A model generated the notes under the pieces. That model searched no databases, was not told the DNA's origin, and was given only the letters and a program-made list of their open reading frames with translations. A DNA stretch of 50,014 bases from contig JAFYTP010000096.1 in NCBI GenBank assembly GCA_017558775.1, positions 1 to 50,014 on the forward strand, given 5' to 3'. The first letter of the stretch is position 1; every line of letters begins with the position of its first letter. This stretch comes from Bacteroidales bacterium (GTDB lineage Bacteria > Bacteroidota > Bacteroidia > Bacteroidales > UBA932). The position numbers and the translations under genes are program-made. Below, piece after piece: positions 10,647 to 41,387 of this stretch.

Positions 10647-11840
10647 TTATTCCAGCATCAGCGCGCGGAATGTCGCGATCTCCTTCTCAGTGATGCCGAT
10701 GGAAAGCAGGTACTTCTCCATACCCACGGAGAATTCGTCGTAGGTGCCGTCGTCCTTCTTGGCGAAGTTATCCCAGATGTAGGTCGCGGCGCCCTTGTAG
10801 TCCGCCTTGCGGGTCATCTTGGTCTTTTCGCCGTCGGAGGTCGCCCAGCCGTGCGGGGCGAACTGGGTCAGCTCGTACTCCTTGGAGATGTCGCCTTCAT
10901 TCACGCCCAGGACACCCAGGATCATCATGGCGATGGTGCCGGTACGGTCGCGGCCCAGGGAGCAGTGGAAATAGACAGGCTTGTTTTCGCTGACGCACTG
11001 CAGGATGAACTGGAAGCACTGTTTTGCCTTCTCCTTGTCATCTCTCAGCAGGGTAGTGTAGCCTTCCTCGATGACGGGAGCGCAGAAGACGAGGTCGTCT
11101 CCCAGAGGACTCTCGCTGAGCACGTCGCTCTTTCCGCGCAGGTCCAGCTGAGCCCGAATACCTTCCGCCAGGATGTCCTTCTTGCCGGTCTTCGTCAACT
11201 TGCCGTCTTCCATACGGCCGCCGCGGTAGATCATGCGGTATTTGACCGTCTTACCGCTCTTGGTCTTCCAGCCGCCCAGGTCGCGGGCGTTGCGGACACC
11301 GGAGGAGAAGAAGACCTGATGGACATGGCCGTGGGTCTTGAACGAACCGGAGGTCAGGGTCTTGCTGCCGGCCTTCACTTCGAAGTGATAGTTGGCGTTC
11401 GGACGCAGATTGGTGATTGTCAGGTAATTGTCGGAAATGCCGGTATAATCCCGGCTCCAGCCGTTATCCTCCCACAGGCGGGCGGTGATATCGTCACTGG
11501 TGGAAGTGGACTCCCAACGGATCGTATACTTCTGGGGCTTGTCGTACTTGCCGGGAGCCGTAGGAGCATAAGCTTCGTCCAGGATATGGGTATCCTTGTA
11601 GTCGCGCTCCGGATAGGTTACCTCAGTCAGGAACTTCTCCACGATGGCATCCGTGACCAGAATGTCATCTCCGTCTTTAACCTGGGGATCCAGATCATCT
11701 TCTTCGGTAGGTGTCGGATCGACGGGCGTGGGATCAACATTCTCCTGGTTTTGTTTGTTGTCGTCGTTGTTATTCTCCGGCTTGGTGCAGCAGAACATCA
11801 GCGGAACGAGAATAATCAGAGATAAATAACGGACTTTCAT
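10647..11840 (-). CDS. Secreted tyrosine-phosphatase-like lipoprotein (HCxxGxDRTG loop)
   Basis: A 397-residue lipoprotein (lipobox LMFCC). A low-complexity Asn/Asp/Pro/Thr/Glu linker leads into a fibronectin-III-like domain (about 65-165) and a cysteine phosphatase domain (about 170-397). The domain has NARDLGGWK, QLDLRGKSDV and the P-loop HCSLGRDRTG, with Cys293 and Arg299 as the expected catalytic residues. The D-R-T-G form of the loop is the one seen in MptpB/LipA-type phosphatases, which accept lipid or inositol phosphates as well as phosphoproteins. Residues 60-397 are clearly paralogous to the C-terminal half of the protein at 26686-29658. It is the first gene after a promoter with AgaR-like operator sites. 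Confidence 0.85.
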   Translation of the reverse strand: MKVRYLSLIILVPLMFCCTKPENNNDDNKQNQENVDPTPVDPTPTEEDDLDPQVKDGDDILVTDAIVEKFLTEVTYPERDYKDTHILDEAYAPTAPGKYDKPQKYTIRWESTSTSDDITARLWEDNGWSRDYTGISDNYLTITNLRPNANYHFEVKAGSKTLTSGSFKTHGHVHQVFFSSGVRNARDLGGWKTKSGKTVKYRMIYRGGRMEDGKLTKTGKKDILAEGIRAQLDLRGKSDVLSESPLGDDLVFCAPVIEEGYTTLLRDDKEKAKQCFQFILQCVSENKPVYFHCSLGRDRTGTIAMMILGVLGVNEGDISKEYELTQFAPHGWATSDGEKTKMTRKADYKGAATYIWDNFAKKDDGTYDEFSVGMEKYLLSIGITEKEIATFRALMLE

Positions 11841-11872: not shown

Positions 11873-11899
11873 AGGAAATCTAGATTTCATTTAAAAAGA

Positions 11900-13578: not shown

Positions 13579-13587
13579 TTCAATGTT

Positions 13588-15006: not shown

Positions 15007-15071
15007 TTTATGTGGTAAGTATTTGATTATAAGCGATTTATTAAAACTAATCTTCGTGTTTTTGTACGTGA

Positions 15072-15137: not shown

Positions 15138-15147
15138 AAGAGTCTGG

Positions 15148-16545: not shown

Positions 16546-16560
16546 TTCGAATTTGATTTT

Positions 16561-16598
16561 AAAAAGGGCATAAACCGCGCTTGGCGGTCTATGCCCTT
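16561..16598 (-). terminator. Terminator or attenuator after the susC-susD-CBM9 genes
   Basis: A stem of 9 plus 5 base pairs (16564-16572 with 16590-16598, and 16574-16578 with 16584-16588) has a 5-base loop. On the minus strand it is followed by TTTTT. It lies between the CBM9-like gene and the DUF4832 gene, so partial termination could set the ratio of receptor to enzyme transcripts. Confidence 0.75.
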
Positions 16599-16611
16599 GA
16601 ATGAACGTGTC

Positions 16612-17346: not shown

Positions 17347-17389
17347 AATGACTTTGATTTGAATTGGTTAAAAATTGTTGGAAATGTAA

Positions 17390-19171: not shown

Positions 19172-22100
19172 TTAGAACTTGAGTTCGATGCCGAGCACGA
19201 CAGAGAGCGGAACGGGATAGTTCTCGCCGCAGACGCCGGCGCTGCCCACGTCACTGAGGCTGACTTCCGGATCCATGCCCGAGAAGCGGGACAGGGTGAG
19301 GAGGTTGTCTCCGGCCACATAGACTCTGGCGCCGCTCATGTTCACCCTCTTCAGGAAGGTGTCAGGGAGGTCGTAGGCCAGGGTGACATTACGAAGACGG
19401 AAGAAGCTGCCGTTTTCGATGAAGCGGGAGGACAGCTTGTTGGAGCTGTCGGTACGGCCGCCGACGGCGAGCGGATGGGTGGCGATGTCACCGGGCTCGG
19501 CCCAGCGGCTCCAACCAAGACCGTTGTCGATGGACATCTGGTTCAGGTTGGTGTAGGCACCGTCGGAGTCCATGTTTTCACGGGCGCGGTTGTAGATGGT
19601 GTTGCCGACCACGAAGCTGCCGGTGGCGCTGAGGGTGAAGTTCTTGAAGCGGACGCCGGTGTTCAGACCGCCGCTGAACCAAGGAGAAGCGGAACCCACG
19701 ATCTGCTGGGTGGCCTTGGAGTAGTCACTGGTCGCGGTGGCGACCATCTTGGCCTGGGTCTTGCCGTTCTCGTCGATGTAGAAGGTCGGGTTGCCGTTCT
19801 CGTCCAGTTCGGGGACGTAGGTCTCCCAGAGCGGAGAGCCGTTGTCGGGATCGACACCCAGCCACTTAGGCATGTACCAGGAGAAGACGTCCCAGCCTTC
19901 GCGGAGGATCTGCGGAGACATCACCATGTCCTCGTGGTTCGGAAGCTCGATCACGCGGTTCTGGTTGTAACCGAGGTTCAGGCCCATGGTCCAGGCGAAG
20001 TCCTTGCGGTTGACGATGGCGCCGTCGATGGCGAACTCGATACCGCGGTTGCGGACCTTACCGACATTGTCGAACTTGGCGAAGAAACCGGTGGACGGAG
20101 CCATCGGGGCTTCGAGAAGGATGCTGGAGTTGAGGGTGTTATAGAGGTCGACGGTCACGTTCCAGTTGTTCTTGATGGTGGCGTCGATACCGAAGCTGGT
20201 CATGAAGGCCTCTTCCCAACCGAGGTTGTAGTTGGCCTGGCGCTGGAGGACAGCGGCGGTCTTGCCGTTGTACAGCGTGCTGAGGGCGAAGGTGTCCTGG
20301 TACTGGAAAGCGGGGATGTTGTCGTTACCGGTCTTTCCGTAACCGCCGCGGAGCTTCAGGAAGGTGATGAAGCTGTTGTTCTTCATGAAGTTCTCCTTGG
20401 AAACGATCCAGGCGGCGGAAGCGCCCGGGAAGAAACCACCGCGGTTGTAGGGACCGAACTTGTAGCTCTCGTCGTAACGGATGGAAGCGGTGAAGATGTA
20501 CTTGCCCAGGTAGGAATACTGAGCCTGACCGAGCACCGCCCAGGAACGGGAGTGGTAGTCGTTACCGGAGATCTTGCTCATCACGGTGTTGGAGAGGGCG
20601 CGCTGGCCGGCCGGGAAGCTGGTGCCGGAGGCAGCCATGCTGCGGGCGTAGCCTTCGCCGTACTCCCAACCGAGGGTGACGTTCACGTCGTGGTCGCCGA
20701 AGGTCTTGAAGAACTTGGCGAGGTTGGTGGTGCCCCAACCGTTCCACTCCCCGTTGCTGTTCTCGAGTTCACCGCCGGTTCCCGCACCGTCGTAGGAACG
20801 GGGATCCACATAGTACTCGTAGTAGGAGGTGGAGGTGTCGTAACGGTTGGTGGAGGTGAGGGTGAGCCAGTCGGTCACGTTCCAGACGAGCTGCAGGTCA
20901 GCGGTGAGGGACTCGCCGTGGCCCTTGGAGTAGTTGTACTGCTCGCTGTGCAGGACGTTGGAAGGATTCTGGGTGTACCACTTCTTGCCGTTATCGGAAC
21001 GAGGGGTCTTATCGTCGGTGATATAGATGAGTTCGTCGCTCCAGGTGCCGTCCTCGTTGATCACATAAGGGATATCCCAAGGCATGGCATAGTAGGAATA
21101 CTCCATGGTACGCCAGGAAGAAGTGCCCTGGTCATTGGACTTGGCATAGCTCGTACGCACGTGCATGGTCAGACGGTCCGTAAGGGGAGCCGACAGGTTC
21201 AAGCGTGCGGAAGTCTTCTTGAAGTTGGTGTTGATGAGGGTACCCTTCTCATTGTAGTGGTCCATGCTGGCGAAGTAGCTCACCTTGTTGGCACGACCGG
21301 AGATGGAACCGTAGTAGTTCTGGACGAAACCGAGCTTGAAGCAGTTGTTCACCCAGTCGAAGTTCTGCTCACGGAGCTCTTCCGGATAGCGCTGCTTGAA
21401 GAGGGCCGGCTTGAACATGGTCTTCTCGTAGTCATAGAGCTCGGCGGCGTCCATGGCATGGAAGCGGCCCATCAGGGCCTTCTTGAGACCGCCGTTGGCC
21501 TTGAACTCGATGGTGGTCTTGTCCTGCTTGCCGCTCTTGGTGGTGACGACGATGACACCGCCGGAAGCGGCCGCACCGTACAGGGCGGTGGCGGAAGCGT
21601 CCTTCAGGACGGTGATGGTTTCGATATCGTTGGGGTTGAAGGAACCGCCGGCGACGCCGTCCACAACATAGAGAGGACCAGCGCCAGCGGTGATGGAACC
21701 GGTACCGCGGATGCGGATGTCGGCGGAGGCGCCAGGCTGACCGGAGCTGTTCATGACAACCACACCGGCTACCTTGCCTTGCAGCATGTTACCCACGTCG
21801 GGGGTGCTGACGTCGCGGAGTTTCTCACCGCTCATCGAGACGACGGCGCTGGAGAGTTCCGCTTTCTTCTGTGTGGTGTAACCCAGAACGACCACTTCAT
21901 CCAGGGCTTCCGTGTCGGGGCTGAGGGCGACATTGATGACGTTGCGGCCGTTCACCGCTTCCGTCACGTTGACGTAGCCCAGGGAGGAGAATGTGAGGTT
22001 GGCGTTCGCAGGCGCCTGGATCACATACTTACCATCGTAATCGGTGATGGTGCCGGTGCCGCTGGGCAGCATGACGCCCACTCCGATGAGGGGCTGGCCG

Positions 22101-22210
22101 TCCGTGGCGTCCGTCACCTGGCCCGATACGGTGATCGTTTGGGCCGTTGCAGGGATTGCAAGCACTGCGGCTGCGATGACTGCAAGCAGGTAGGAGTAGA
22201 TTTTTCTCAT
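19172..22210 (-). CDS. SusC/RagA-family TonB-dependent outer-membrane transporter
   Basis: A 1012-residue protein of normal SusC length. Order: signal peptide (about 1-23), a carboxypeptidase-regulatory-like domain (about 28-100), a TonB-box-like DEVVVLGY segment, the plug domain (VGNMLQGKVAGVVV, then IRIRGTGSI), and a long beta-barrel ending in an aromatic residue. It imports the oligosaccharides held by SusD, using TonB energy. The gene lies 59 bases after the gatZ-like gene on the same strand with no clear promoter between them, so agaS, gatZ-like, susC, susD and the CBM9-like gene may form one transcript from the AgaR-controlled promoter. Confidence 0.97.
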   Translation of the reverse strand: MRKIYSYLLAVIAAAVLAIPATAQTITVSGQVTDATDGQPLIGVGVMLPSGTGTITDYDGKYVIQAPANANLTFSSLGYVNVTEAVNGRNVINVALSPDTEALDEVVVLGYTTQKKAELSSAVVSMSGEKLRDVSTPDVGNMLQGKVAGVVVMNSSGQPGASADIRIRGTGSITAGAGPLYVVDGVAGGSFNPNDIETITVLKDASATALYGAAASGGVIVVTTKSGKQDKTTIEFKANGGLKKALMGRFHAMDAAELYDYEKTMFKPALFKQRYPEELREQNFDWVNNCFKLGFVQNYYGSISGRANKVSYFASMDHYNEKGTLINTNFKKTSARLNLSAPLTDRLTMHVRTSYAKSNDQGTSSWRTMEYSYYAMPWDIPYVINEDGTWSDELIYITDDKTPRSDNGKKWYTQNPSNVLHSEQYNYSKGHGESLTADLQLVWNVTDWLTLTSTNRYDTSTSYYEYYVDPRSYDGAGTGGELENSNGEWNGWGTTNLAKFFKTFGDHDVNVTLGWEYGEGYARSMAASGTSFPAGQRALSNTVMSKISGNDYHSRSWAVLGQAQYSYLGKYIFTASIRYDESYKFGPYNRGGFFPGASAAWIVSKENFMKNNSFITFLKLRGGYGKTGNDNIPAFQYQDTFALSTLYNGKTAAVLQRQANYNLGWEEAFMTSFGIDATIKNNWNVTVDLYNTLNSSILLEAPMAPSTGFFAKFDNVGKVRNRGIEFAIDGAIVNRKDFAWTMGLNLGYNQNRVIELPNHEDMVMSPQILREGWDVFSWYMPKWLGVDPDNGSPLWETYVPELDENGNPTFYIDENGKTQAKMVATATSDYSKATQQIVGSASPWFSGGLNTGVRFKNFTLSATGSFVVGNTIYNRARENMDSDGAYTNLNQMSIDNGLGWSRWAEPGDIATHPLAVGGRTDSSNKLSSRFIENGSFFRLRNVTLAYDLPDTFLKRVNMSGARVYVAGDNLLTLSRFSGMDPEVSLSDVGSAGVCGENYPVPLSVVLGIELKF

Positions 22211-22269: not shown

Positions 22270-23496
22270 CTAGAGCAAATCGTTCAATCCGATCAGATTG
22301 AAGGCCCGGAAGTACTTGTCCATATCCCGCTCGATGCGTCCGAGGACGATCTGTTCCGGGTCGATGCCCAGACGGGTCAGGTTGGCGTACAGGAAGCCGC
22401 GGGCGGCGAGGGGAGCGGGCTGCTGCCAGATATAACGGCAGCAAGTCGCGACAATCCAGTCCTGACGGGCTTCAGTGAGCTCGCCCAGGTCCTTGCCCTG
22501 CTCGTCTTCGTGCAGCCACTTTTCCCAGCGGTGGGACTCGTGGACGGCTTTGTGGAGCACGTCTTTCATATGGGAGAGGACCGCTACGCGGCCTTCTTTT
22601 TCGTATTTGACCTCCAGCTCTTCCAGTTCGCACAGGGCGCGGTATTCGCTGATGGTGAATTCAGGGCCGACGTTGGCGGCGCCCATGCCGCACAAAGGAT
22701 ACTCCTCCGGGTTAGCCACATCATCCGTGTAATGACCTTTGATGTAGCTACCCAGAGGACGTACCTTCGAGGTGAGCGACCTTGCGACCACCGGATCGAA
22801 CACGGTCGTGTCCAGGTCCGTACCCACCTTCCCGACGATGAAACAGGGCCACACGTCGGGCAAACCAACATTAACCAACCCTTTTTTGAGTTCCTGAATA
22901 AAAGTGTCGAAAGTCTTCTCGTCGGCGAGGCCTCCGTGGACCTCCTCGGTACCTACCTCGTAGGAGATGGCGGGAAGATTGTTCTGCTTGCGGAAGTTCT
23001 CCACGTGGGCGATCAGCTCCACCGTTCTGGCAGCCACCAGGCGGATGTCGATGGTTTCGCCCTTGGGGACGTTGATGTCCACGGTGGGATCCACATGGAT
23101 GAGGTCGTAACCGGCCAGGACGGCGGCCTCGAAGGACTTCTTGACACCGTCCATGGCGTCCTTGACGGACCATTTCTCGGTGCGCTGCTTGTCCTTGAGC
23201 CAGGGACCGCCGTGGTCGATGGCCACGATGACGGGACCGGTGAAATGGACACGCTCCACCTCGAAGCGGATCATCCGGGTGAATTCCGCCTGCGTCATGC
23301 CCGTGTAACCGCCGTCGCAGTCGATCTGGTTGAGCGTGGCGGCGAAATAGATGGGGGCGTTGTTACGCTTGGCGGCGCGGATGGAAGCGCTGATGACGGC
23401 GGGGGAGTTCGGGCAGGCCGCAAAGATGGTGCGGCGCACGCCGGTCTCCTTCTCGAGCTCGTCAATCCTGTGGAGCAGTTGTTCGGTTTTCGGCAT
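22270..23496 (-). CDS. GatZ/KbaZ-like tagatose-bisphosphate aldolase accessory subunit
   Basis: A 408-residue cytoplasmic protein that follows the GatZ/KbaZ family: the N-terminal FAACPNSPAVISASIRAAKR segment, VIVAIDHGGPW, AGYDLIHVDPTVD, and YEVGTEEVHGG with barrel-type charged residues. In Enterobacteria this protein is the non-catalytic partner of the class II aldolase GatY/KbaY and is needed for its stability. No GatY/KbaY-type gene lies in this window, so here it may work with a distant partner or have an activity of its own. It starts 6 bases after agaS. The AgaS/KbaZ/AgaR trio matches the E. coli N-acetylgalactosamine (aga) cluster. Confidence 0.85.
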   Translation of the reverse strand: MPKTEQLLHRIDELEKETGVRRTIFAACPNSPAVISASIRAAKRNNAPIYFAATLNQIDCDGGYTGMTQAEFTRMIRFEVERVHFTGPVIVAIDHGGPWLKDKQRTEKWSVKDAMDGVKKSFEAAVLAGYDLIHVDPTVDINVPKGETIDIRLVAARTVELIAHVENFRKQNNLPAISYEVGTEEVHGGLADEKTFDTFIQELKKGLVNVGLPDVWPCFIVGKVGTDLDTTVFDPVVARSLTSKVRPLGSYIKGHYTDDVANPEEYPLCGMGAANVGPEFTISEYRALCELEELEVKYEKEGRVAVLSHMKDVLHKAVHESHRWEKWLHEDEQGKDLGELTEARQDWIVATCCRYIWQQPAPLAARGFLYANLTRLGIDPEQIVLGRIERDMDKYFRAFNLIGLNDLL

Positions 23497-23502: not shown

Positions 23503-24621
23503 CTATAAATATAAAGTGACGCCTTCCACCACACGGGAAATGTTTCCGGAAACGGAAGGGGAGTCCGGGCTGAGCCCGGTCGCAATCGACTTGAAGAAGC
23601 CCAGCAGCTGTCCCACGAAGATGTAGGACACGCAGGCGTAATAGTCAGCCACGCTGTTCGGAAGGCCGATCTCGACGCAGAGGTCGTAGCAGTCTGCCTC
23701 GAGGGCGGCGGGTTTCTGCTGGCACACGACAACGCTGGCTTTCACGTTGTTGTTGGACTTGATCTGGCGGATCAGATCCAGTTCGTAGCGCTGGATGTCC
23801 GGCTTGTTGGACAGGAGGTAGACCAGCATGGAGTTCGGGTTCACCAGGGCCTTGGGGCCGTGGCGGAAGCCCAGGAAGGAGTCATAGGCGCACATCACGG
23901 CACCGTCGGTGAGCTCCTGGAGTTTCAGGCGGGACTCTTCCGCGACGCCCTTGAGCGGGCCGGAACCGAGGAAGATGGCGCGGGTGAAATTGCGGTCGGC
24001 GATCTCCTGGATCTTGGACTCGTAGTATTCCATGGCCGCTTCGACCTTGTCAGAGAGGAGGTCGATGCTTTCCTTGTCCTCCTCGATATTGTCGATGCGC
24101 GCGATCATCGAGCACACGATCAGCATCGTGGAGTAGCTGCTGGTCATCGCCAGGGAGACGTCGTTGGTCTCCGGGGGCAGGAGGATGGTGAGGATGTTGG
24201 AACCCTTCATCTTGGCCAGTTCGCCGTTCTCGTTGCAGGTGATGAAGACGTGGGCCACCTTGCCGGCGGTCTTTTCCACGGCCTTGACGGCACCAACGCT
24301 CTCCGGGCTGTTGCCGGAACGGGCGAAGGAGACGAGCAGCACCTTGCTGTTCTCGTCGAAATAGAGGCCCGGATCGGTGATGATGTCGGTGGTGGCGATG
24401 GCGCGGACGCTTCTTCTGACTCTGGAGAGGGCCGGTTCGAGGGCGTCGCCGATATAGGCGGAAGTGCCGGCGCCGGTCAGGACGATTGTGAAGTCTTTGT
24501 CTAAGTTTTCATTCAGGAAGTTCTGGATTTCGGACTTACGCGCGCGGATAATGTCATAGGCTTTGCGCCAGACACGCGGCTGCTGCCGTATCTCCCTGTA
24601 TGTGTGAAAATCCTGTGTCAT
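23503..24621 (-). CDS. agaS: AgaS-like SIS-domain sugar-phosphate isomerase/deaminase
   Basis: A 372-residue cytoplasmic protein with two SIS (sugar isomerase) domains. VLTGAGTSAYIGDALEP and LLVSFARSGNSPESVGAV mark the first sugar-phosphate binding site; FLGSGPLKGVAEESRLKLQEL, YDSFLGFRHGPKALVN and later segments mark the second. This is the arrangement of AgaS, which converts galactosamine-6-phosphate to tagatose-6-phosphate and ammonia. Length fits AgaS (about 380) and is shorter than GlmS. It is first in its transcript, behind a promoter with an AgaR-like site. The pathway role is supported by the neighbouring kbaZ-like, agaR-like, pfkB and GH109 genes. Confidence 0.85.
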   Translation of the reverse strand: MTQDFHTYREIRQQPRVWRKAYDIIRARKSEIQNFLNENLDKDFTIVLTGAGTSAYIGDALEPALSRVRRSVRAIATTDIITDPGLYFDENSKVLLVSFARSGNSPESVGAVKAVEKTAGKVAHVFITCNENGELAKMKGSNILTILLPPETNDVSLAMTSSYSTMLIVCSMIARIDNIEEDKESIDLLSDKVEAAMEYYESKIQEIADRNFTRAIFLGSGPLKGVAEESRLKLQELTDGAVMCAYDSFLGFRHGPKALVNPNSMLVYLLSNKPDIQRYELDLIRQIKSNNNVKASVVVCQQKPAALEADCYDLCVEIGLPNSVADYYACVSYIFVGQLLGFFKSIATGLSPDSPSVSGNISRVVEGVTLYL

Positions 24622-24797: not shown

Positions 24798-25589
24798 TTA
24801 GACGGAAACCGTTTCGACATTGATCTTCATCGAACGGAGCTGGCTCTTGAAGCTGGCCGGGATGTGGCTGTCGGTGATGACTGTATGGATCTTGTCCGGC
24901 ATCGCGATGAACGCCAGGGAGCGCTTGTTCACCTTGGAGGAATCGAACACGGCGATCACCTCGCGGGCGCGCGAAATCATTACTTGATTGGTGCTTGCCT
25001 CCTCCATGCTGGGGGTGGAAAGACCGGCCTCCATGCTGATGCTGTCCACGCCCAGGAACAGCTTGTCGCAGTAGAAGAGCTTGAGGTTGGATTCCGCCAG
25101 CGGCCCCACGATGGAGTTGCTGGATTCACGGACGGTACCGCCCAGGAGAATCACCCTGAAACGCTTGTATTTGACCGCCTCCAACATCGCGTTAACGGAG
25201 TTGGTGATGATAGTCAGGTCATTGAAGGAGTGGAGGTTACGGACGACCTGGAGGGCGGTGGTGCCAGAGTCCACGAGGATGGTGTCCCCGTTCTTGATAT
25301 GGGCGGCCGCGGCACGGCCGATGGCTTCCTTTTCCCGGGAGTTCACGAGCTGCTTGAAGTGGAAGTTCCGCTCCTCGACCTCGTCCGTGGTGGAGGTGGC
25401 GTCCATGATCGCTCCGCCGTGTACACGGAGGAGCAGTTTCCGTTCCTTCAGGATGCGGAGATCTTTCCGGATCGTCACTTCCGAAACGCCGAATTCGCGG
25501 CTCAGTTCGGACACATTGACGGAAGATTCTTCGCGGAGGCGTTGAAGGATGGCCGAGCGGCGGCCCTGTGCGGAATCGTAGATGTTCAT
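24798..25589 (-). CDS. DeoR/AgaR-family transcriptional repressor
   Basis: A 263-residue regulator of typical DeoR length. The N-terminal helix-turn-helix (about 10-60) contains ESSVNVSELSREFGVSEVTIRKDL, followed by the family's LRVHGGAI segment. The C-terminal sugar-phosphate sensor domain has GDTILVDSGTTALQVVRNL and DKLFLGVDSISMEAGLS. AgaR and related proteins are released from DNA by sugar phosphates. It is transcribed divergently from pfkB. Candidate operators overlap its own promoter, the pfkB start, the agaS promoter and the promoter at 11.9 kb, so it probably controls both arms of the locus and itself. Confidence 0.88.
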   Translation of the reverse strand: MNIYDSAQGRRSAILQRLREESSVNVSELSREFGVSEVTIRKDLRILKERKLLLRVHGGAIMDATSTTDEVEERNFHFKQLVNSREKEAIGRAAAAHIKNGDTILVDSGTTALQVVRNLHSFNDLTIITNSVNAMLEAVKYKRFRVILLGGTVRESSNSIVGPLAESNLKLFYCDKLFLGVDSISMEAGLSTPSMEEASTNQVMISRAREVIAVFDSSKVNKRSLAFIAMPDKIHTVITDSHIPASFKSQLRSMKINVETVSV

Positions 25590-25721: not shown

Positions 25722-25742
25722 AAAACGAAAACCAAATGAAAC
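25722..25742. promoter_or_regulatory. AgaR-like operator at the pfkB start
   Basis: On the minus strand it contains TTTCATTTGGTTTTCG, close to the same core. It covers the translation start of the PfkB kinase gene. Confidence 0.45.
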
Positions 25743-26689
25743 AGTACGACATCGCTGCGATCGGCGAACTCAACGTAGACATCATTCTGAACCACATTGA
25801 ATCCGAGCCGGAAATCGGCAAGGAAAAGTTCGCCAAGGACATGATCGTGACCTTGGGCTCTTCCACCGCCATCTTCGCAGCCAATGCCGCCGCTCTGGGC
25901 AGCAAAGTCTGTTTCGTGGGCCTCGTCGGCCGCGATTCCTTCGGTGACCTCGTCTGCACCTCCCTCGACGCCAAGGGTGTCGAAACCCGTTTCATCAAGA
26001 AAGGCGAAACCCCTACCGGTGCCACCATCTGCATGAACTACGGCGAGGACCGCGCGAACCTGACCTATCAGGGCTCCATGGACGTGATGGGCTTCGATGA
26101 CATCGACCCGGAAGTCTTCGAGAGCGCTTCCCATATCCATCTTTCTTCCCTTTTCATGCAGTCCGGACTGCTCCGGGACATCCACAAGATCCTGGACAAG
26201 GCTGTGGAGAAGGGGATCACCGTGTCCCTGGACACCCAGTGGGATCCGATGGAGACTTGGAAGCTCGATTATACCACCGTTCTCCCGAAAGTGACGGTGT
26301 TCCTGCCCAACGAAAAGGAACTGCAGGCCCTCACCGGCACGCAGGATCTGGAAAGCGCCATCGCCAAGGTGCTCCCGTACCTGGGATGCTCGATGGTGGT
26401 CAAGTGCGGCTCCAAGGGCTCGCTGCTCGTGCTCAAGGACGGCACCCGCCGCTTCCTGCCCGCGTTCCTGAATAAGAATGTGGTCGATGCCATCGGCGCG
26501 GGCGACAGCTTCAACTCCGGTTTCGTGAGCGCTTTCGTGAAGCGGATGCCGCTGGAGACTTGCCAGGAGACCGGCAACCTCACGGGCGCGGTCAACACCA
26601 CCGCCGCGGGCGGTACGGGCGCTTTCACCTCGCTGGAAGCCGTGCGCGACATCTGTAAGGAACGATTCGGACATCCCATTGCCCTATGA
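25736..26689 (+). CDS. PfkB-family carbohydrate kinase
   Basis: A 317-residue ribokinase-like kinase. It has the N-terminal sugar-binding strand AIGELNVDIIL, the GGSS-like TLGSSTAIFAANAAALG segment, FVGLVGRDSFGDLV, and the C-terminal signature DAIGAGDSFNSGF with the catalytic Asp and anion hole. Substrate is not fixed by sequence. In the context of AgaS and a KbaZ-like protein, tagatose-6-phosphate (giving tagatose-1,6-bisphosphate) or a free amino sugar are the likely ones. It is the first gene of the plus-strand arm and overlaps the following fusion gene by ATGA. Confidence 0.88.
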   Translation: MKQYDIAAIGELNVDIILNHIESEPEIGKEKFAKDMIVTLGSSTAIFAANAAALGSKVCFVGLVGRDSFGDLVCTSLDAKGVETRFIKKGETPTGATICMNYGEDRANLTYQGSMDVMGFDDIDPEVFESASHIHLSSLFMQSGLLRDIHKILDKAVEKGITVSLDTQWDPMETWKLDYTTVLPKVTVFLPNEKELQALTGTQDLESAIAKVLPYLGCSMVVKCGSKGSLLVLKDGTRRFLPAFLNKNVVDAIGAGDSFNSGFVSAFVKRMPLETCQETGNLTGAVNTTAAGGTGAFTSLEAVRDICKERFGHPIAL

Positions 26690-29658
26690 GACAATTCGTG
26701 TTTATAGTAAGTTTTTTGAGCGTATTGGCGGCCTGCTCCCAGCAGCCCGCCAATGACTGTGCTTATAGCGGGGGTAAACCCGTGAAAAACGTGGACGTGG
26801 TGGTGGCCACCGCGCCCGCCGGCGACCTGACGCTCCGCAGCGTCTGCTTCGTGAATAACGGCACCAAGGCCGTCAGCATCGACGCTATCGAAACCTCTCC
26901 CGTTTCCGTGGAGGGAAAGGAGGTCTGGTCGTTCCAGCCCACTTCCTCCGACGAGCGCAAGGACTGGGTCCTGCCGGTGGGGAAGGGTTTCTATCAGCGT
27001 AACTTCCTGGGTATGAACGCTCCCGACTACGGCGGCGGCATTCCCATGATCAGTTTATGGAATAAGGACGCGTGCGTGAGCGTGGGATTGACCGAGCCGG
27101 TGATGCGGCAGGTGTCGATGCCCGTGAGCCGCAAGGGGAACGTCACCCGGGCCGTCATCCGGCAGGAGTTCCCCGAGCCCGTGAAGCTCGCGCCCGGCGA
27201 CACCCTCTACGCGCTGAAGCAGTTCGTGATCGAGGGCCAGGGCGATTTCTTCCAGCCGCTGCGTCAGTTCGCCGGTTACATGCACGACACCTACGGCTGG
27301 GAAGCCCCCGTTTCGCCGGAGGATGCCTACGAGCCGGTCTGGTGCGCCTGGGGCTATGAGCGCACGTTCACCGTGGACGAGGTCGTCGGCACCCTGCCCA
27401 AGGTGGTGGAGCTCGGCTTCAAGTGGGTCGATATCGACGATGGCTACCAGATCTGCGAAGGCGATTGGACGGCCAACGAGCGGATCGGCGCGGAAGGCAT
27501 GCGCCGGATGACGGACGCTGTCCATGAGGCCGGCCTCAAGGCCAAGATCTGGTGGGCGCCGATGTCCGCGGATCCCGGCAGCGCGCTGGCCACGGAGCAT
27601 CCCGAGATGCTGCTGGTGCAGAAGGACGGCACCCACGAGGACATCTCCTGGTGGGACAGCTGGTACCTTTCTCCCGTGAACCAATATACCTGGAAATATA
27701 CGGAAGACCTGGTGGATATGTTCCTGGTTGACTGGGGATTTGACGGCTTCAAGCTTGACGGCCACTACCTGAATCTCTGCGCCCCGGACTACAATCCCGC
27801 CAGCGGTCTTTCCTATCCGGAGGAGGCTCCGGAGCGTCTCCCGGAGTTCTTCGCCCATCTCTATGGACAGGCTCAGGCGGACAAGCCCGGCTGCGTCGTA
27901 CAGCTCTGCCCGTGCGGCTGCGCTGTCAACTTCTTCAGCATTCCTTTCATGAACCAGGCGGTGGCCTCCGATCCCACTTCCAGCGCACAGATCCGCATGA
28001 AGCGGATGGTGTACGCCGCGATGTGCCCGGATCTGGCTTATTACGCCGATCATGTGGAGCTCTCCGACGGCGGCCTGGATTTCGCCTCGCAGGTGGGTGT
28101 GGGCGGTGTCATCGGCACCAAGTTCACCTGGCCAAAAGTCAATCCTGACGCCCAGGAATGCGGCGGCAGCCTGCTGACTCCCGAGAAGGAGGCCCTGCTG
28201 CGCAAGTGGGTGCCCATCTATACGGAAAAGATGCTTTCCACGGGCACTTACCTCGATCTCTACACCTACGGCATCGATAAGCCCGAGGCCCATGTGATCG
28301 ACAAGGGCAAAGCCCTCTATTATGCTTTCTATGCTCCGAAGTGGAACGGTGAGCCCATTACACTCCGCGGTCTGGACGCTTCCCATACCTACTCAGTCAC
28401 GGAATATACCGCCGATGAGCCCGTCACTTATCTCGTGAACGGAAGCGATCCGGTCATCAAGCCGGTTTTCGAGGGCAATTATCTCATCGAGGTTACCGAG
28501 TTCCGTCAGGCCGCTCCTGAGGTTAAGGATGGGGATACCGTATTGGCTACCAATCCGTTGGTGGAGAAATTCCTGACGGAAGTGGACTACCCGGACAAGA
28601 CTTGCACGGAGTACACCAAGGTGTTGGACTATTACGGCGGTTTCGACGGCAAGAACATCACTTGGGACAATTGGGCGACCAAATGGCCCGACGGTGACAA
28701 GCCGCTGTCCTACAGCATCCGCTGGAAGGCGGCGGATGTGGAAGACGGCGTCATGACGCTGCATCTGGAAGACGAACTCTCGTGGGCGCGGGACAAGGAG
28801 ATTGCCCCCGGTTCCCGTTTTGTGACGATCACCAATCTGGTCCCCAATGACAAGTACACCTACAAGGTGACTACGGAAAGCGGGAAAGTCCTCACGGAGG
28901 GCAGTTTCACTACGACCGGCCATCTGCATCAGGTGTTCTTTACCGGTGACATCGAATACAAGAACGGTGTCGCTTTGAAGGGCTCTGGTGGCCGTAATGC
29001 CCGCGATCTGGGCGGCTGGACTGGCCTGGACGGGAAAAAGACGAAATACCGCAAGATCTATCGGGGCGGCCGTCTGAACGAGAAATGGGAGCCTTATCCG
29101 ATTAATGCCCAGGGACAGCAGGAGCTGCTGTTCGAGGGTATCGGCGCCCAGCTTGACCTCCGTGGCAAGTCCGACGTCATGACTACGCCGGCTGCCGAGG
29201 GACTGGCTCACTGCGCGCCCGTCATCGAACAGGGCGGCAAGGCCATGCTTGTCAATGACCACGCCAAGACCAAGCAGTGCTTTGAGTTTGTGCTGGATTG
29301 CGTCCGCAAAAACAAGCCGGTCTATTTCCACTGCTCGCTGGGCCGTGACCGCACCGGCACCCTGGACATCCTGCTGCTGGGCCTCCTTGGCGTGCGAGAA
29401 GGCGACATCGCCAAGGAATATGAGGTGACCTATTTCGCTCCGGTCGGGTACAGCGTTTCTTCCTCGGAGAAGGATTCGAACACGGAGCCTGTCTTTAGGA
29501 ACACCCGTATGGAATGGGTTTACAGCGACGTGGTACCTTATTTCTGGGAGATGGCCGGGGATGGTTCCTTCGCGGACGGCGTGGAGAAATATCTCCTGAC
29601 CGTGGCGGGCGTTCCCCAGAAAGACATTGACGAATTCCGTAAATTGATGCTTGATTAA
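26686..29658 (+). CDS. Fusion of GH36-like alpha-galactosidase and tyrosine-phosphatase-like domain, lipoprotein
   Basis: A 990-residue secreted protein in one uninterrupted frame with lipobox LAAC (Cys17). Residues about 20-600 look like a clan GH-D alpha-galactosidase: an N-terminal beta-sandwich, then PVWCAWGYERTF, KWVDIDDGYQ (about 247-256), FDGFKLDGHYL with likely nucleophile Asp about 356, CPCGCAVNFF, and VELSDGGLDFA (about 455-465), a candidate acid/base region. A small C-terminal beta domain follows. Residues about 610-990 repeat the protein at 10647-11840: a fibronectin-III-like domain, then a cysteine phosphatase with GGRNARDLGGW and HCSLGRDRTG (Cys about 883, Arg about 889). The join falls where the paralog's lipoprotein linker ends. 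It overlaps pfkB by 4 bases. Such a fusion suggests coupled removal of galactose and phosphate. Confidence 0.82.
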   Translation: MRQFVFIVSFLSVLAACSQQPANDCAYSGGKPVKNVDVVVATAPAGDLTLRSVCFVNNGTKAVSIDAIETSPVSVEGKEVWSFQPTSSDERKDWVLPVGKGFYQRNFLGMNAPDYGGGIPMISLWNKDACVSVGLTEPVMRQVSMPVSRKGNVTRAVIRQEFPEPVKLAPGDTLYALKQFVIEGQGDFFQPLRQFAGYMHDTYGWEAPVSPEDAYEPVWCAWGYERTFTVDEVVGTLPKVVELGFKWVDIDDGYQICEGDWTANERIGAEGMRRMTDAVHEAGLKAKIWWAPMSADPGSALATEHPEMLLVQKDGTHEDISWWDSWYLSPVNQYTWKYTEDLVDMFLVDWGFDGFKLDGHYLNLCAPDYNPASGLSYPEEAPERLPEFFAHLYGQAQADKPGCVVQLCPCGCAVNFFSIPFMNQAVASDPTSSAQIRMKRMVYAAMCPDLAYYADHVELSDGGLDFASQVGVGGVIGTKFTWPKVNPDAQECGGSLLTPEKEALLRKWVPIYTEKMLSTGTYLDLYTYGIDKPEAHVIDKGKALYYAFYAPKWNGEPITLRGLDASHTYSVTEYTADEPVTYLVNGSDPVIKPVFEGNYLIEVTEFRQAAPEVKDGDTVLATNPLVEKFLTEVDYPDKTCTEYTKVLDYYGGFDGKNITWDNWATKWPDGDKPLSYSIRWKAADVEDGVMTLHLEDELSWARDKEIAPGSRFVTITNLVPNDKYTYKVTTESGKVLTEGSFTTTGHLHQVFFTGDIEYKNGVALKGSGGRNARDLGGWTGLDGKKTKYRKIYRGGRLNEKWEPYPINAQGQQELLFEGIGAQLDLRGKSDVMTTPAAEGLAHCAPVIEQGGKAMLVNDHAKTKQCFEFVLDCVRKNKPVYFHCSLGRDRTGTLDILLLGLLGVREGDIAKEYEVTYFAPVGYSVSSSEKDSNTEPVFRNTRMEWVYSDVVPYFWEMAGDGSFADGVEKYLLTVAGVPQKDIDEFRKLMLD

Positions 29659-29670: not shown

Positions 29671-31092
29671 ATGAAGAAGATTCTTGTTTTGGCGGCCCTT
29701 GCCGCTCTGGCCTTCTCCTCCTGCTCGAAAAAGGAAAAGGTGGATGAGTATGGCTATACCATCAAGGACAACCAGATTGTTTACAACACGCCGGCCCGTC
29801 CGGCGGACCAGCAGAGCATGCTGCAGTTCGCCGCGGAGCCCATTGAACACGTGCGCGTCGGCCTCGTCGGCCTTGGCGACCGTGGTACCGGTGCCGTGTA
29901 CCGTTTCCCGTACATCGAGGATGCGACCATCGTCGCCCTTTGCGACCTGATGCCGGAACGCGTGGAGCGGGCCCAGGGCATCCTGGAGGAGCTCGGCGCT
30001 CCCCGCGCGCTGTACGAGTTCAGCGGCGAGGAAGGCTATAAGGAGCTTTGCCAGCGCGATGACATCGACCTGGTCTATCTGGCCGTTCCTTGGCAGCTGC
30101 ATACCCCCATCGCCGTCTATGCGATGGAGCATGGCAAGCACGTGGCCATCGAGGTGCCCGCCGCCACCAGCATCAAGGAGTGCTGGGACCTGGTGAACAC
30201 TTCCGAGCGCACGCGCAAGCACTGCATGATGCTGGAGAACTGCTGCTACGACTTCTTCGAGCTCACCTGCCTGAACATGATCCAGCAGGGTGTCTTCGGC
30301 GAGGTCGTGCATGTGGAAGGTTCCTATTGCCACAACCTGGATCCCTACTGGGACCAGTACCAGGGTGACTGGCGCATGACCTACAACAAGGACCACCACG
30401 GTGACGTCTATCCGACGCACGGTATCGGCCCTGTCTGCCAGGACATCGACATTCACCGCGGCGACAAGATGAACGTGCTCGTGTCCATGGACACCGACGC
30501 CTTCAACGGCCAGGAGATCGCTGACAAGCGCTATGGCAAGGGTGTCGTCGAGAAGTACGCCAACGGTGACAACACCATGACCTTCATCCGCACCGAGAAG
30601 GGCAAGACCATCCTTGTGGAGCACAACGTGGTCACCCCTCGTCCTTACAACCGCATGTACCAGGTCACCGGCACCAAGGGCTTCGCCAACAAGTACCCGA
30701 ACGAGGGCCTCGCCCTGGGCGCTGACATGGTGAAGGCTCCCGTCGCCTACGACGATCTGGACGCCGAAGAGTACATGAGCGACGCTGAGCGCGACGCTCT
30801 GATGGCTCTTTATGAGCACCCGATTGCCAAGGGTATCTCCGAGAAGGCGAAGGAGGTCGGCGGACACGGCGGCATGGACTTCATCATGGATTACCGTCTC
30901 ATCTACTGCCTCCACCACGGTCTCCCGCTCGACCAGGACGTCTACGACGCCGCCGAGTGGAGCTCCCTCGTGGAACTCACCGAAGTCTCCATCAACCACG
31001 GTTCCATGCCCATCGTGATGCCCGACTTCACCCGTGGCGAATGGAACAAGCTCGATGGCCTGCATTTTGCACTCCTCGAAGAAGAAAACTAA
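29671..31092 (+). CDS. GH109-like alpha-N-acetylgalactosaminidase (Gfo/Idh/MocA fold) lipoprotein
   Basis: A 473-residue secreted protein (lipobox FSSC at Cys18). The domain starts with HVRVGLVGLGDRGTGAV, the NAD-binding motif and the form typical of glycoside hydrolase family 109. It continues with ALCDLMPERVERA, YLAVPWQLHTPIAVYAMEHGKHVAIEVP and MMLENCCYDFFE. GH109 enzymes remove alpha-linked N-acetylgalactosamine using a tightly bound NAD. It lies 12 bases after the GH36/phosphatase fusion and is followed by a strong terminator. It provides GalNAc for the AgaS route and is the clearest clue to the substrate of the locus. Confidence 0.9.
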   Translation: MKKILVLAALAALAFSSCSKKEKVDEYGYTIKDNQIVYNTPARPADQQSMLQFAAEPIEHVRVGLVGLGDRGTGAVYRFPYIEDATIVALCDLMPERVERAQGILEELGAPRALYEFSGEEGYKELCQRDDIDLVYLAVPWQLHTPIAVYAMEHGKHVAIEVPAATSIKECWDLVNTSERTRKHCMMLENCCYDFFELTCLNMIQQGVFGEVVHVEGSYCHNLDPYWDQYQGDWRMTYNKDHHGDVYPTHGIGPVCQDIDIHRGDKMNVLVSMDTDAFNGQEIADKRYGKGVVEKYANGDNTMTFIRTEKGKTILVEHNVVTPRPYNRMYQVTGTKGFANKYPNEGLALGADMVKAPVAYDDLDAEEYMSDAERDALMALYEHPIAKGISEKAKEVGGHGGMDFIMDYRLIYCLHHGLPLDQDVYDAAEWSSLVELTEVSINHGSMPIVMPDFTRGEWNKLDGLHFALLEEEN

Positions 31093-33577: not shown

Positions 33578-35563
33578 CTATAGATAGTCTTCGAAATACA
33601 TCGTGACTTTGTCCATCAGGTGAATCCGCCTGCGGCCACCAACGTTATGCTGGTCTGTCGGGTAGGGGAAGTAATCCAGCTGGACGTTTTGCCTAATGCA
33701 CTCCTCGACAAAGCTCAGGGAATGCTCCCAGACGACGGTGTTGTCCACCGCACCCTGGCAAATGAGAAGCTTGCCCTTGAGATCCTTCACTTTGTTAATC
33801 AATGAGGTCTTCGCAAAGCCTTCGGGATTCGTGGCTTCGGTGTCCATGTAGCGTTCGCCGTACATGATTTCGTACCATTTCCAGTCGATGACGGGGCCGC
33901 CGGCGACGCCGACCTTAATCACGTCAGGGTAGTTAGTAATCAGGGAGATGGTCATGAAGCCGCCGTAGCTCCAGCCGTGGACGCCGATGCGGGAGGCGTC
34001 GACATAGGGGAGCTCCAATAGGCGACGGACGCCCACCATCTGGTCGGCCATTTCCGCTTGGCCGCACTGGCGGTTGATGGCTTTTTCGAAGGCGGCGCCG
34101 CGGTTGGAGGTGCCGCGGTTGTCCTGGACATAGACCAGGTAGCCTTTCTGGGCCATCAGCATTTCCCACATGCGCACGCCGCCGAGCCAGGAGTCCTGGA
34201 CCATCTGGGAGTGCGGGCCGCCATAGACATAGACGATGACGGGATACTTCTTCGCAGGATCGAAATCCTTCGGATAATACAGCCGGTAATAGTTCTCGAA
34301 CTGTCCATCGGCGCTCGGAACGGTGCCCAGCTCCACAGCACAAGCCGCGAACGAAGCCAAAGGATCGGACGCCTCAAAGAGCACAGTCGAGCGCACTCCA
34401 TCGACACTCCTCAGCACCGTCGCGCCCGGGTTGTCCAGGCTAGAGTAACGGTCGAAGAACCAGGTGCAGGCGTCATTCATCGAGATGTCGTGCCAGCCGC
34501 GCTCCGGGGTGAGGGCCACGGGCTTGCCGAACTTGGCCTTCGCCAGGGCCTTCTTCGCCGGCGCTTTCACAGCAATCTTGTACAGATGGTTCTCAATCGG
34601 AGAGTCCTGCGCGGAGGTATAGAACACGTTCACGCCGTCATTGCCGATATACTCGACATCGGCCGCAACGTCCGTCAACCGACGAATACCGCCCAAAGTA
34701 TCAAGCAGATACAGGTTCCGGTAGCCATCCCGGTTATCGGTCCGATAAATCATCAGATCGCGGCGACCCTTCAGGAACCACACGGGATCCAGCGGCTCCA
34801 CCCAGGCGTCGTTGTCCTCCGTCAGGAGCGTGCGGACGAACTTGCCCGTGGCGGCGCTGTACTGGTTCAGCTTCATGTGATGCTGCGTGCGGTCCAGGAC
34901 CTGCACATACACCGACTTGTCGTCCGGGGACCAGCTGATGTTCGTCAGGTAGCGCTCGGGCGTGAATTCGTCCACGTCCAGATACACCGTGCTGCCCTTG
35001 TCGATGTCAAAGATCCCCACGCCCACGATCTCGGAGTCCATCCCGTTCATCGGGTATTTGAGCAGCTCCAGATCGCCCGTGCGGGTGGTGATGTCAAGCA
35101 GCGGGAAGTCCGTCACGCGAGACTCGTCCTTGCGGAAGAACGCCAGCTTCGACCCCGAGGGCGCCCAGAAAACGCCTCCGTCGATGCCGAACTCATTCCG
35201 GCTCACGGACTGTCCGTACACGATCTCGCGGTCGTTGGAAACCGCCACGGCCACCGTGTCCTTCTTCCGGACAATATACAGGCTATTGCCGATGTTCGCA
35301 GCCCTCCAGCCTGCTTCCGGGGCTGATGTGAGGTTCTCATCGACCTTGGCAGTCTCCCAGCGGGAGCCGGTGTAGTACCGGTACTCGTTGTCATCGACCC
35401 AGGTATAATACCGGTTCTCCGGATACATAGTGCGGCCCACGACCGCGTTTTCCATCGTCAGCAGCTTGCCGTCGTGCGCGGCGGTCGTGCCGATCACGCG
35501 GGGCTGGGCAAAAAGAACGCCGCCCAGCAGGGCGGCGCCCAGAATCGTCAGTAACTTTCTCAT
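33578..35563 (-). CDS. Dipeptidyl-peptidase IV-like S9 family serine peptidase
   Basis: A 661-residue secreted peptidase with an N-terminal signal peptide (about 1-19). The middle is the DPP IV-type beta-propeller (ENRYYTWVDDNEYRYYTGSRWE, VFWAPSGSKLAFFRKDES, NISWSPDDKSVYVQVLDR). The C-terminal alpha/beta hydrolase has nucleophile Ser in GWSYGGF, Asp in GAVDNTV and His in DQHN. It cleaves dipeptides from N-termini, commonly after Pro or Ala. It is shorter than typical 720-residue DPP IV of Bacteroidales, mainly in the N-terminal region. It overlaps the upstream small membrane protein gene by ATGA, so the two are co-transcribed. Confidence 0.9.
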   Translation of the reverse strand: MRKLLTILGAALLGGVLFAQPRVIGTTAAHDGKLLTMENAVVGRTMYPENRYYTWVDDNEYRYYTGSRWETAKVDENLTSAPEAGWRAANIGNSLYIVRKKDTVAVAVSNDREIVYGQSVSRNEFGIDGGVFWAPSGSKLAFFRKDESRVTDFPLLDITTRTGDLELLKYPMNGMDSEIVGVGIFDIDKGSTVYLDVDEFTPERYLTNISWSPDDKSVYVQVLDRTQHHMKLNQYSAATGKFVRTLLTEDNDAWVEPLDPVWFLKGRRDLMIYRTDNRDGYRNLYLLDTLGGIRRLTDVAADVEYIGNDGVNVFYTSAQDSPIENHLYKIAVKAPAKKALAKAKFGKPVALTPERGWHDISMNDACTWFFDRYSSLDNPGATVLRSVDGVRSTVLFEASDPLASFAACAVELGTVPSADGQFENYYRLYYPKDFDPAKKYPVIVYVYGGPHSQMVQDSWLGGVRMWEMLMAQKGYLVYVQDNRGTSNRGAAFEKAINRQCGQAEMADQMVGVRRLLELPYVDASRIGVHGWSYGGFMTISLITNYPDVIKVGVAGGPVIDWKWYEIMYGERYMDTEATNPEGFAKTSLINKVKDLKGKLLICQGAVDNTVVWEHSLSFVEECIRQNVQLDYFPYPTDQHNVGGRRRIHLMDKVTMYFEDYL

Positions 35564-36006
35564 AAGAACAACTGTTCGGCGGAAGCGTCGTAGGGAAGCC
35601 GGTTCGCGGGCTCCGGAACGATGGGCTCCGCATTCTCGATGACGTCCACGATGGCGCGCTCATAACCGCGCCAGGGGAGCGCTCCCTTGTATTCCTTGAA
35701 ATGGACGGTTACGCGCTGGCCGGTGAGTCCCTGGAGTTCCTCGGCGACGGCCTTGTCGGCCACGGAGAACTTGAAGATCTTGGACTGCACGGCGCCGCCG
35801 GAGGAGGACTTGGCTCCATAGCCCGAGAGGATCATCTCGCCCTCGTACGTCTTCCAGATGTAGCCGGTGTAGGTGAGCGAGTTCAGCTCGCCGGTCTTCG
35901 TGCCGTCGCTGAACACCCACAGGAATTTGTAATAGAAGAAGCCCGCGCCCACCAGCAGGAGGAGGACGACGACCCACGCGATGATTTTACCTACTGTCTT
36001 TGCCAT
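35560..36006 (-). CDS. Conserved-looking small membrane-anchored protein
   Basis: A 148-residue protein with a single N-terminal hydrophobic helix (about 7-28) and an extracytoplasmic domain. The latter contains VFSDGTKTGELNSLTYTGYIWKTYEGEM, a pattern I recall from small uncharacterised Bacteroidales proteins that are sometimes mislabelled as 6-phosphogluconate dehydrogenase. No catalytic motif is visible. It is co-transcribed with the DPP IV-like peptidase downstream (4-base overlap) and has its own promoter. Confidence 0.7.
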   Translation of the reverse strand: MAKTVGKIIAWVVVLLLLVGAGFFYYKFLWVFSDGTKTGELNSLTYTGYIWKTYEGEMILSGYGAKSSSGGAVQSKIFKFSVADKAVAEELQGLTGQRVTVHFKEYKGALPWRGYERAIVDVIENAEPIVPEPANRLPYDASAEQLFL

Positions 36007-36026
36007 ATCGCAATACTTTTATTCTA

Positions 36027-36058
36027 CAAAATTAACGAATCGGGGCCGGAATCGCAAG
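36027..36058 (-). promoter_or_regulatory. Promoter of the small membrane protein and DPP IV-like genes
   Basis: On the minus strand TAATTTTG (36027-36034) lies about 21 bases before the start at 36006, with CTTG (36055-36058) after a 20-base spacer. Confidence 0.6.
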
Positions 36059-36065
36059 GTTTCGC

Positions 36066-37613: not shown

Positions 37614-37614
37614 C

Positions 37615-38388
37615 TTATTGCATCTGTCTGAGCAGGACCGTGATTCCGGGCAGCTGCTCCGGAAGGCCGGAGAGGTCCGTCTGCGAGAAGTGGTAGGGGA
37701 TGAGGACCTTGGGCTGGATGACCTTCGCGGCATTGACACACTGCTCCACCGTCATCGTATAAGGCTGATTCACAGGGAGGAAGGCCAGGTCGATGTCCTT
37801 GATGTCGGCCATCTCCGGGATATCCTCCGTGTCACCGGCGATATAGATGCGGAAACCGTCGATGGTGAGGATGAAGCCGTTGTCCCGGCCCTGCGGGTGG
37901 AACATGGTATGGCCATCCGTGTAGTTGTAAGCGGGGACCGCATCCAGCTTGATATCCTTGCGTAGGTCGCGGCTGTCGCCATTGGCCATCACGTCGCCGG
38001 CGCCGCGCATTTCCGCGCAGCGGGCGTTGGTGATCAGCTGCGTATTTTCTCCGGTGAGGGCGTCCAGGGCAGTGGGGTCGAAGTGGTCGCCGTGCTCGTG
38101 GGTGACGAGGATGAAATCGGCCTTCGGGAATTCGGCGGCGTAGTCGGTGGGCTTGCCCAGGCCGGAGACCGGATCGACCTGGATGGACAGGCCGTCGTAG
38201 AAGATTTCCAGGGAGCCGTGCTTGATGAGGGTTATGCCGATGGGTTTGCCGCTCTTGGTTTGGAAGGTTTCCACCTCGTAGCGGGCGGCGCGGAGGGCCA
38301 CCGCTTCGTCGAAGCTCTTCTGCTGGGCGTTTCCGCAGGAGGCCAGGCCCAGGAGTGTAAGGATGGACATCAGTTGGAGGGTTTTCAT
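37615..38388 (-). CDS. UlaG-like metallo-beta-lactamase-fold hydrolase, lipoprotein
   Basis: A 257-residue protein. The ATG at 38388 (MKTLQLMSIL) gives a signal peptide with lipobox LASC, while the frame can extend to 38421. The core has the metal-binding motif THEHGDHFD, YDGLSIQVDPVSG, a second ligand region IYIAGDTEDIPEM and a final IPYHFSQ, typical of the UlaG-like branch of the MBL fold. Members include lactonases and phosphodiesterases; the substrate here is unknown. It shares its transcript with the C69 dipeptidase gene. Confidence 0.82.
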   Translation of the reverse strand: MKTLQLMSILTLLGLASCGNAQQKSFDEAVALRAARYEVETFQTKSGKPIGITLIKHGSLEIFYDGLSIQVDPVSGLGKPTDYAAEFPKADFILVTHEHGDHFDPTALDALTGENTQLITNARCAEMRGAGDVMANGDSRDLRKDIKLDAVPAYNYTDGHTMFHPQGRDNGFILTIDGFRIYIAGDTEDIPEMADIKDIDLAFLPVNQPYTMTVEQCVNAAKVIQPKVLIPYHFSQTDLSGLPEQLPGITVLLRQMQ

Positions 38389-41386: not shown

Positions 41387-41387
41387 T

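Follow-up and report, generated by a model that had tools for sequence, protein, structure and literature searches.

Why would a glycosidase and a phosphatase share one polypeptide chain, and what would such a chain act on? The question is raised by a 50,014-nucleotide stretch of DNA from a Bacteroidales bacterium (GenBank assembly GCA_017558775.1, contig JAFYTP010000096.1; hereafter the window), in which one open reading frame (ORF) of 990 codons, 26686..29658 on the forward strand, joins a protein resembling glycoside hydrolase (GH) family 36 to a phosphatase. An earlier inspection of the DNA letters alone (the sequence-only reading) had described this ORF as one uninterrupted frame, and its coordinates, frame and domain content were all correct. 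In the related genomes sampled, the two parts are conserved partners encoded by separate genes, and the fusion is a variant peculiar to this genome; the recurrent pairing of glycosidases with this phosphatase is the more interesting finding. Our preferred reading, to which we give a probability of roughly 0.5, is that the product is a pair-derived, exported bifunctional enzyme, which would remove both phosphate and a terminal galactosamine-type sugar from a phosphorylated glycan.

The two halves of the fused reading frame

The ORF begins with a lipoprotein-like N-terminus (MRQFVFIVSFLSVLAAC). The join lies immediately before a linker, KDGD..LATNPLVEKFLTEV, that is common to the fused ORF and a free-standing lipoprotein phosphatase encoded elsewhere in the window (Table 1). 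Both the paralogy of the C-terminal part to that protein and the position of the join at the linker are in agreement with the sequence-only reading. Alignment of the whole chain with both kinds of half-length relative was dropped, because MAFFT placed phosphatase rows onto the GH36 half, and the halves were aligned separately (43 GH36 rows and 49 phosphatase rows).

For the N-terminal half, a phmmer search of the PDB returned 8x1b (E = 1e-54) and 9awt (E = 5e-53) over about residues 113-608. The latter is FpGalNase, an A-type galactosaminidase, to which 8x1b is near-identical in the printed alignments. The similarity to the FpGalNase-like group of GH36 covers the catalytic barrel (phmmer, 9awt, residues 113-605), and on these matches the earlier assignment to clan GH-D holds, despite sub-threshold Pfam scores for Melibiase (given below) and for GH31, which at 23.0 bits is slightly under its cut-off of 23.5. 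According to the available text of PMC11762096, the FpGalNase active site comprises patch A (W317, D346, D347, W387, K461, D463) and patch B (Y464, C513, D532), and mutants at D463, Y464, C513 and D532 have lowered activity. In the printed alignment, W317, D346, D347, W387, K461, D463, C513 and D532 correspond to W222, D251, D252, W289, K356, D358, C410 and D429 in the fused protein, each invariant in all 43 GH36 rows. This mapping, taken with general knowledge of GH36, makes D358 the likely nucleophile and D429 the likely acid/base; an Asp nucleophile had been foreseen, although at about residue 356. The name alpha-galactosidase probably carries the wrong specificity, and was dropped as the first-choice activity, because the closest relatives are FpGalNase chains, the FpGalNase residues, C513 and D532 among them, are kept, and the surrounding cluster encodes AgaR-, AgaS- and KbaZ-like proteins together with a GH109-like protein.

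The C-terminal half matches the Pfam family PF13350 (Y_phosphatase3) over residues 767-989 with 89.9 bits against a cut-off of 22.2, and contains a weak, sub-threshold Pfam match to fn3. Its P-loop reads HCSLGRDRTG, so that the HCxxGxDRTG loop is intact as claimed. All 49 phosphatase rows share its H, C, G, R, D, R, T and G, and PF13350 matches every one of these 49 family members at E 0.01 or better. The proposed pair of intact catalytic domains in one chain is supported: key residues of both active sites are kept, and both sites look intact. Relaxed selection on the fused gene was considered and left no sign; by leave-one-out comparison the window protein departs from otherwise invariant columns at 1 of 131 positions in the GH36 half and 0 of 39 in the phosphatase half, and there is thus no hint of decay.

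The nearest solved sequence relatives of the phosphatase half include 8dhi and MptpB (1ywf), and relatives of MptpB act on phosphopeptides and phosphoinositides (PMC3091653, available text). The fusion and the partnership could thus be real and the phosphatase nonetheless directed at lipids such as phosphoinositides, or at phosphoproteins such as glycoproteins with phosphoserine or phosphotyrosine, rather than at sugar phosphate; peptidase genes downstream, at 33578-37739, would suit such targets. This is the chief competing view of the phosphatase, and we consider it unlikely. The MptpB-like phosphoinositide phosphatases (ALPs) are described in the same text as having the P-loop signature HCXXGKDR with a strictly conserved Lys, whereas this position is Arg in 49 of 49 phosphatase rows, and the recurring partners of the module are glycosidases (GH36 and GH18) and BACON domains.

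Separate genes in relatives and the probable origin of the join

We collected 68 loci from other genomes, 59 of which have a GH36 ORF at ≥40% identity; none of these 59 carries a GH36-phosphatase fusion. From the 51 loci at ≥61% GH36 identity, 48 were scorable, with a complete GH36 ORF and ≥600 bp downstream. The phosphatase is the next gene after GH36 in 43 of the 48, with gaps of -14 to +21 bp, and one further locus has neither phosphatase nor GH109 next, with just 621 bp to the contig end. Eight loci at 44-60% GH36 identity have no phosphatase adjoining GH36. A tandem pair of phosphatase genes follows GH36 at L082, L089, L091, L093, L094 and L115.

Whole-genome searches with the fused protein covered overlapping samples of 149 family, 400 genus, 120 relatives' and 393 order genomes, and a single match spanning residues 1-990 occurred, among the matches listed, in the protein's own genome only. 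Frame lengths from these searches were rejected as evidence of fusion, since such frames read through stops. In the order sample of 393, GH36 relatives at 39-54% were found in 13 other genomes, none with a phosphatase match at E 1e-20. Close relatives of this genome include Bacteroidales metagenome-assembled genomes from goat abomasum and sheep omasum. As far as sampled, the GH36-phosphatase fusion is private to this genome and not a conserved architecture. The sequence-only reading had taken absence from related genomes as counting against its fusion, and for GH36-phosphatase such absence is the outcome, with 0 fused of 59 loci; relatives have the two genes as separate neighbours.

A lipobox-like signal was detected by regular expression in 37 of the 43 neighbouring phosphatases, and in the other six the signal ends in YC. 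Twenty-two of the 43 are at least 490 aa long, and scans for BACON (PF13004 or PF19190), a putative binding domain, were positive in 9 of 9 long forms and 0 of 4 short forms. Of 70 phosphatase ORFs, 50 contained the linker motif as defined by a regular expression, a pattern too strict for the GH18 forms. In a tree of the GH36 half the window protein groups with G504 (locus L076), with support of 80/42 only; in the phosphatase tree it falls in another subclade than the phosphatase adjoining the G504 GH36. Because the nearest relatives of the two halves differ, the trees suggest that phosphatase genes have been exchanged within the cassette.

In blastn comparison with relatives, the window gene aligned to the last GH36 codons and the alignment resumed in the phosphatase linker. 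The window has 24-122 bp at the junction, where L006, L078 and L080 carry 361-410 bp more; the segment missing from the window contains the GH36 stop, a second start with signal peptide, and BACON. Judged by outgroup comparison, the split two-gene state is ancestral. Two true genes could also appear fused if about 400 bp between them had been lost in metagenome assembly, and an assembly of 128 contigs at 87.7% completeness, along with the lack of the fusion at all 59 other GH36 loci, would fit such an error. The join nevertheless keeps the frame. Within 200 bp on each side, exact direct repeats spanning the junction do not exceed 8 bp, so that collapse of a simple repeat is not an obvious cause; the GH36 ends of relatives do not share 13 bp present at the join (ACCGAGTTCCGTC); the same genome contains no second piece close to the signal-plus-BACON segment, the best match having 32% identity (E 5e-8); and the downstream gap to GH109, 12 bp, is of normal size. 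On these observations a genuine deletion is the likelier account, and we regard an assembly error as quite improbable. A leftover unfused copy was sought elsewhere in the genome and not found.

A real fusion may also be accidental, a recent neutral deletion that put two exported neighbours into a single chain without any benefit from their union. Its occurrence in a single genome would agree with this, yet the key residues of both halves remain conserved, and stable fusions of this phosphatase module to GH18 exist in many genomes, which makes the accidental origin doubtful in our view.

Recurrent fusion of the phosphatase module to GH18

Elsewhere in the same genome, on contig C15 (L052:2-1393), the remainder of a GH18 protein cut by the contig end is joined to the same phosphatase module. 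A complete GH18-fn3-phosphatase protein of 705 aa (L127:5243-7357) was used as a query, and a further such fusion lies at L045:2224-4368. The query gave at least 45 matches without interruption, each starting no later than residue 55 and ending at residue 704 or 705, in at least 43 of 400 genus genomes (its own included), and glycosidase-phosphatase fusions thus recur. In 18 fusion genes at 18 fetched loci, the GH18 part retains its motif DGxDxDWE and the phosphatase part its P-loop, HC[AS]AGRDRT[GA]; the same loci also encode four other GH18 proteins without the phosphatase P-loop. The neighbourhoods of the fusions are not uniform, and at some loci include a histidine phosphatase, alkaline phosphatases, GH20, GH31, ROK and SusD proteins, or a GH2 protein with an exo-glucosaminidase Ig domain.

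Among the matches listed for an order sample of 295 genomes, only the genome that contains the window matched the phosphatase half, and 18 other genomes matched the GH18 half only. The phosphatase module with GH36 or GH18 partners looks restricted, as sampled, to this Bacteroidales family. The same phosphatase family also occurs in lipoprotein-like chains of 640-644 aa at L050:6420-8351 and L051:5237-7156; the former contains a fimbrillin-like Mfa_like_1 domain, and the latter is a close relative.

Gene cluster, proposed function and known systems

Neighbouring genes encode proteins that resemble those for the use of galactosamine-type sugars (Table 1).

Table 1. Positions in the window of the fused ORF's segments, its cluster and its paralogue.
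Feature	Coordinates	Strand	Remarks
Free-standing lipoprotein phosphatase paralogue	10647..11840	-	50% identity to fused ORF residues 605-990
SusD	17390-19159	-	follows the divergent genes
SusC	19172-22210	-	follows the divergent genes
GatZ/KbaZ-like tagatose-bisphosphate aldolase subunit	22270..23496	-	agaZ_gatZ 90 of 569 bits
AgaS-like SIS-domain sugar-phosphate isomerase/deaminase	23503..24621	-	agaS_fam 368 of 529 bits
AgaR-like DeoR-family regulator, divergent	24798..25589	-	AgaR 236.5 of 260 bits (NCBIfam)
PfkB sugar kinase	25736..26689	+	4 bp overlap with GH36 start; upstream of GH36 in 42/48 scorable loci
GH36-like glycosidase half, residues 1-603, lipoprotein-like signal	26686..28494	+	putative nucleophile D358 and acid/base D429 by mapping
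Fusion junction and linker (TEFRQAAPEVKDGDTVLATNPL)	28495..28560	+	in relatives: stop, new start, signal peptide, BACON (long forms)
Phosphatase module: linker motif VEKFLTEV, weak fn3-like match, PF13350 phosphatase	28561..29655	+	P-loop residues 882-891
GH109-like protein (alpha-N-acetylgalactosaminidase relative)	29671..31092	+	Glyco_hydro_109_C 131 bits vs cut-off 27; best PDB 6t2b, GH109 protein 2

The AgaS-, AgaR- and KbaZ-like proteins reach the Pfam cut-offs of SIS, DeoRC and GatZ_KbaZ-like. Across the 48 scorable loci, PfkB is present in at least 43, AgaR in at least 42, AgaS in at least 41, SusC in at least 33, KbaZ in at least 32 and GH109 in at least 25, all lower bounds because several stretches end early. 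By this distribution, the cluster of SusC, KbaZ, AgaS and AgaR opposite PfkB, GH36, phosphatase and GH109 recurs across the genus, and the partnership is old. AgaS is described as a signature of N-acetylgalactosamine (GalNAc) or galactosamine (GalN) use, and the absence of the deacetylase AgaA as a signature of GalN use (PMC5583593, available text). A deacetylase-type amidohydrolase was found in none of the 39 proteins scanned, all from the window.

The paralogue in Table 1 belongs to a second phosphatase-rich stretch (3537-17390, minus strand), which also holds an alkaline phosphatase (7906-9042), a weak phytase-like/SdiA-regulated match (11929-13578), DUF4832/DUF4874 (15148-16545), esterases and an EamA transporter. 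Further away, a defence-like pair at 41057-43214 consists of a MazG-like protein and an adjoining Schlafen-group-3-type helicase that contains a GIY-YIG domain, and a protein of the Porphyromonas-type peptidyl-arginine deiminase family (PF04371) is encoded at 44490-45377.

In the sequence of events that we propose, neighbouring GH36 and lipoprotein phosphatase genes would have been joined by the loss of about 360-410 bp, including the stop of GH36, the signal peptide of the second gene and BACON, to give one exported bifunctional enzyme. Its GH36 half would act as a retaining GH-D enzyme through D358 and D429 and release GalN or GalNAc, a galactosamine-type sugar, from a terminal alpha linkage, and its cysteine phosphatase half (C883) would take phosphate monoesters off the same glycan or its fragments. 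Dephosphorylation may unblock the exo-acting GH36 and GH109 enzymes and allow phosphate to be recovered, and the freed sugar would then be imported and used via AgaS, PfkB and KbaZ. Because exo-glycosidases are usually blocked by substituents, phosphate removal beside hydrolysis would be sensible on a phosphorylated amino-sugar glycan. Of all this, the sequences show the ORF, the paired genes, the conserved residues and the missing segment; export, the two activities, their substrate and the sequence of steps are inferred.

This bifunctional reading draws support from the kept FpGalNase residues and invariant P-loop, the gene pair, the AgaR/AgaS/KbaZ/PfkB/GH109 cluster, the BACON domains of the long forms, the GH18 fusions, and the lack of relaxed constraint. 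That the pair is conserved, that long forms carry BACON and that fusions to GH18 occur all point to carbohydrate-facing work. For the coupled role that the sequence-only reading envisaged, the support is indirect, coming from the gene pair in 43 of 48 loci and from the separate GH18-phosphatase fusions. Polymers of alpha-linked Gal/GalNAc with galactosamine occur in several fungi, and the available text of PMC3213105 places no phosphate on them; fungal galactosamine polymers are offered here as a suggestion for the substrate.

Several observations weigh against the bifunctional reading. On the N-terminal half, Pfam Melibiase scores 23.2 bits, under its cut-off of 27. Eight of the nine FpGalNase active-site residues are kept, the exception being Y464, which is G359 here, so that patch B retains C410 and D429; beside the active site, position 360 is His in the window protein and Gln in the other 42 of the 43 GH36 rows. 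The AgaS-, AgaR- and KbaZ-like proteins do not reach the NCBIfam equivalog or subfamily cut-offs, and the names are therefore approximate. Finally, GH109 directly follows GH36 with no phosphatase between them in 4 of the 48 scorable loci, and four loci at 59-60% GH36 identity are among those without an adjoining phosphatase; the cluster can therefore do without this gene.

A wider and more tentative reading is that this Bacteroidales lineage has an exported family of glycan phosphatases for phosphorylated amino-sugar polymers of bacterial, fungal or protist walls, with a laforin-like logic. One module might be plugged onto BACON, GH18 chitinase-type and GH36 galactosaminidase-type domains, with dephosphorylation and hydrolysis possibly combined in one chain. 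Polysaccharide loci are usually interpreted through their glycosidases, and phosphate on the target glycan is seldom considered. A phosphatase beside GH36 in most sampled loci, together with the repeated glycosidase fusions, predicts a phosphate-bearing amino-sugar glycan as food, and the enzyme pair is itself a handle for finding it. If true, the concept of the glycan phosphatase would widen from glycogen and starch metabolism to external digestion by bacteria. The sequence-only reading knew of no described glycosidase-phosphatase chain; likewise, searches of one open-access library yielded no description of a GH36- or GH18-phosphatase fusion or of a GH36/phosphatase pair.

Among known systems, the Flavonifractor plautii A-antigen galactosaminidase FpGalNase (9awt, 9ayu; 8x1b) provides the closest solved sequences to residues 113-608 and shares eight of the nine active-site residues listed above from PMC11762096; it differs in having Y464 in place of G359, in lacking a phosphatase domain, and in its known partner, a deacetylase. 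The Bacteroides theta mucin/GalNAc locus BT4240-50 resembles the cluster in its SusC/D, GH109 and sugar kinase for GalNAc use. In the available text of PMC11992087, however, its kinase is an APH-type GalNAc 1-kinase, and the genes listed there include no GH36, AgaS, KbaZ or protein tyrosine phosphatase (PTP)-type phosphatase. PF13350 phosphatases such as MptpB and 8dhi share the profile match and a CX5R P-loop with the Asp of HCxxGxDR, while the module described here has Arg for the diagnostic Lys, predicted export, and fn3-like together with BACON or glycosidase modules. The glucan phosphatases laforin and SEX4, according to the available text of PMC9254107, likewise join a PTP-superfamily phosphatase to a carbohydrate-facing module. 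They use CBM20 or glucan-binding sites on glucan substrates; CBM20 had no match in the window protein, and the free-standing long forms carry BACON instead. With BACON, GH18 or GH36 as the carbohydrate-facing partner, the likeness to laforin and SEX4 would be one of working logic rather than of sequence membership.

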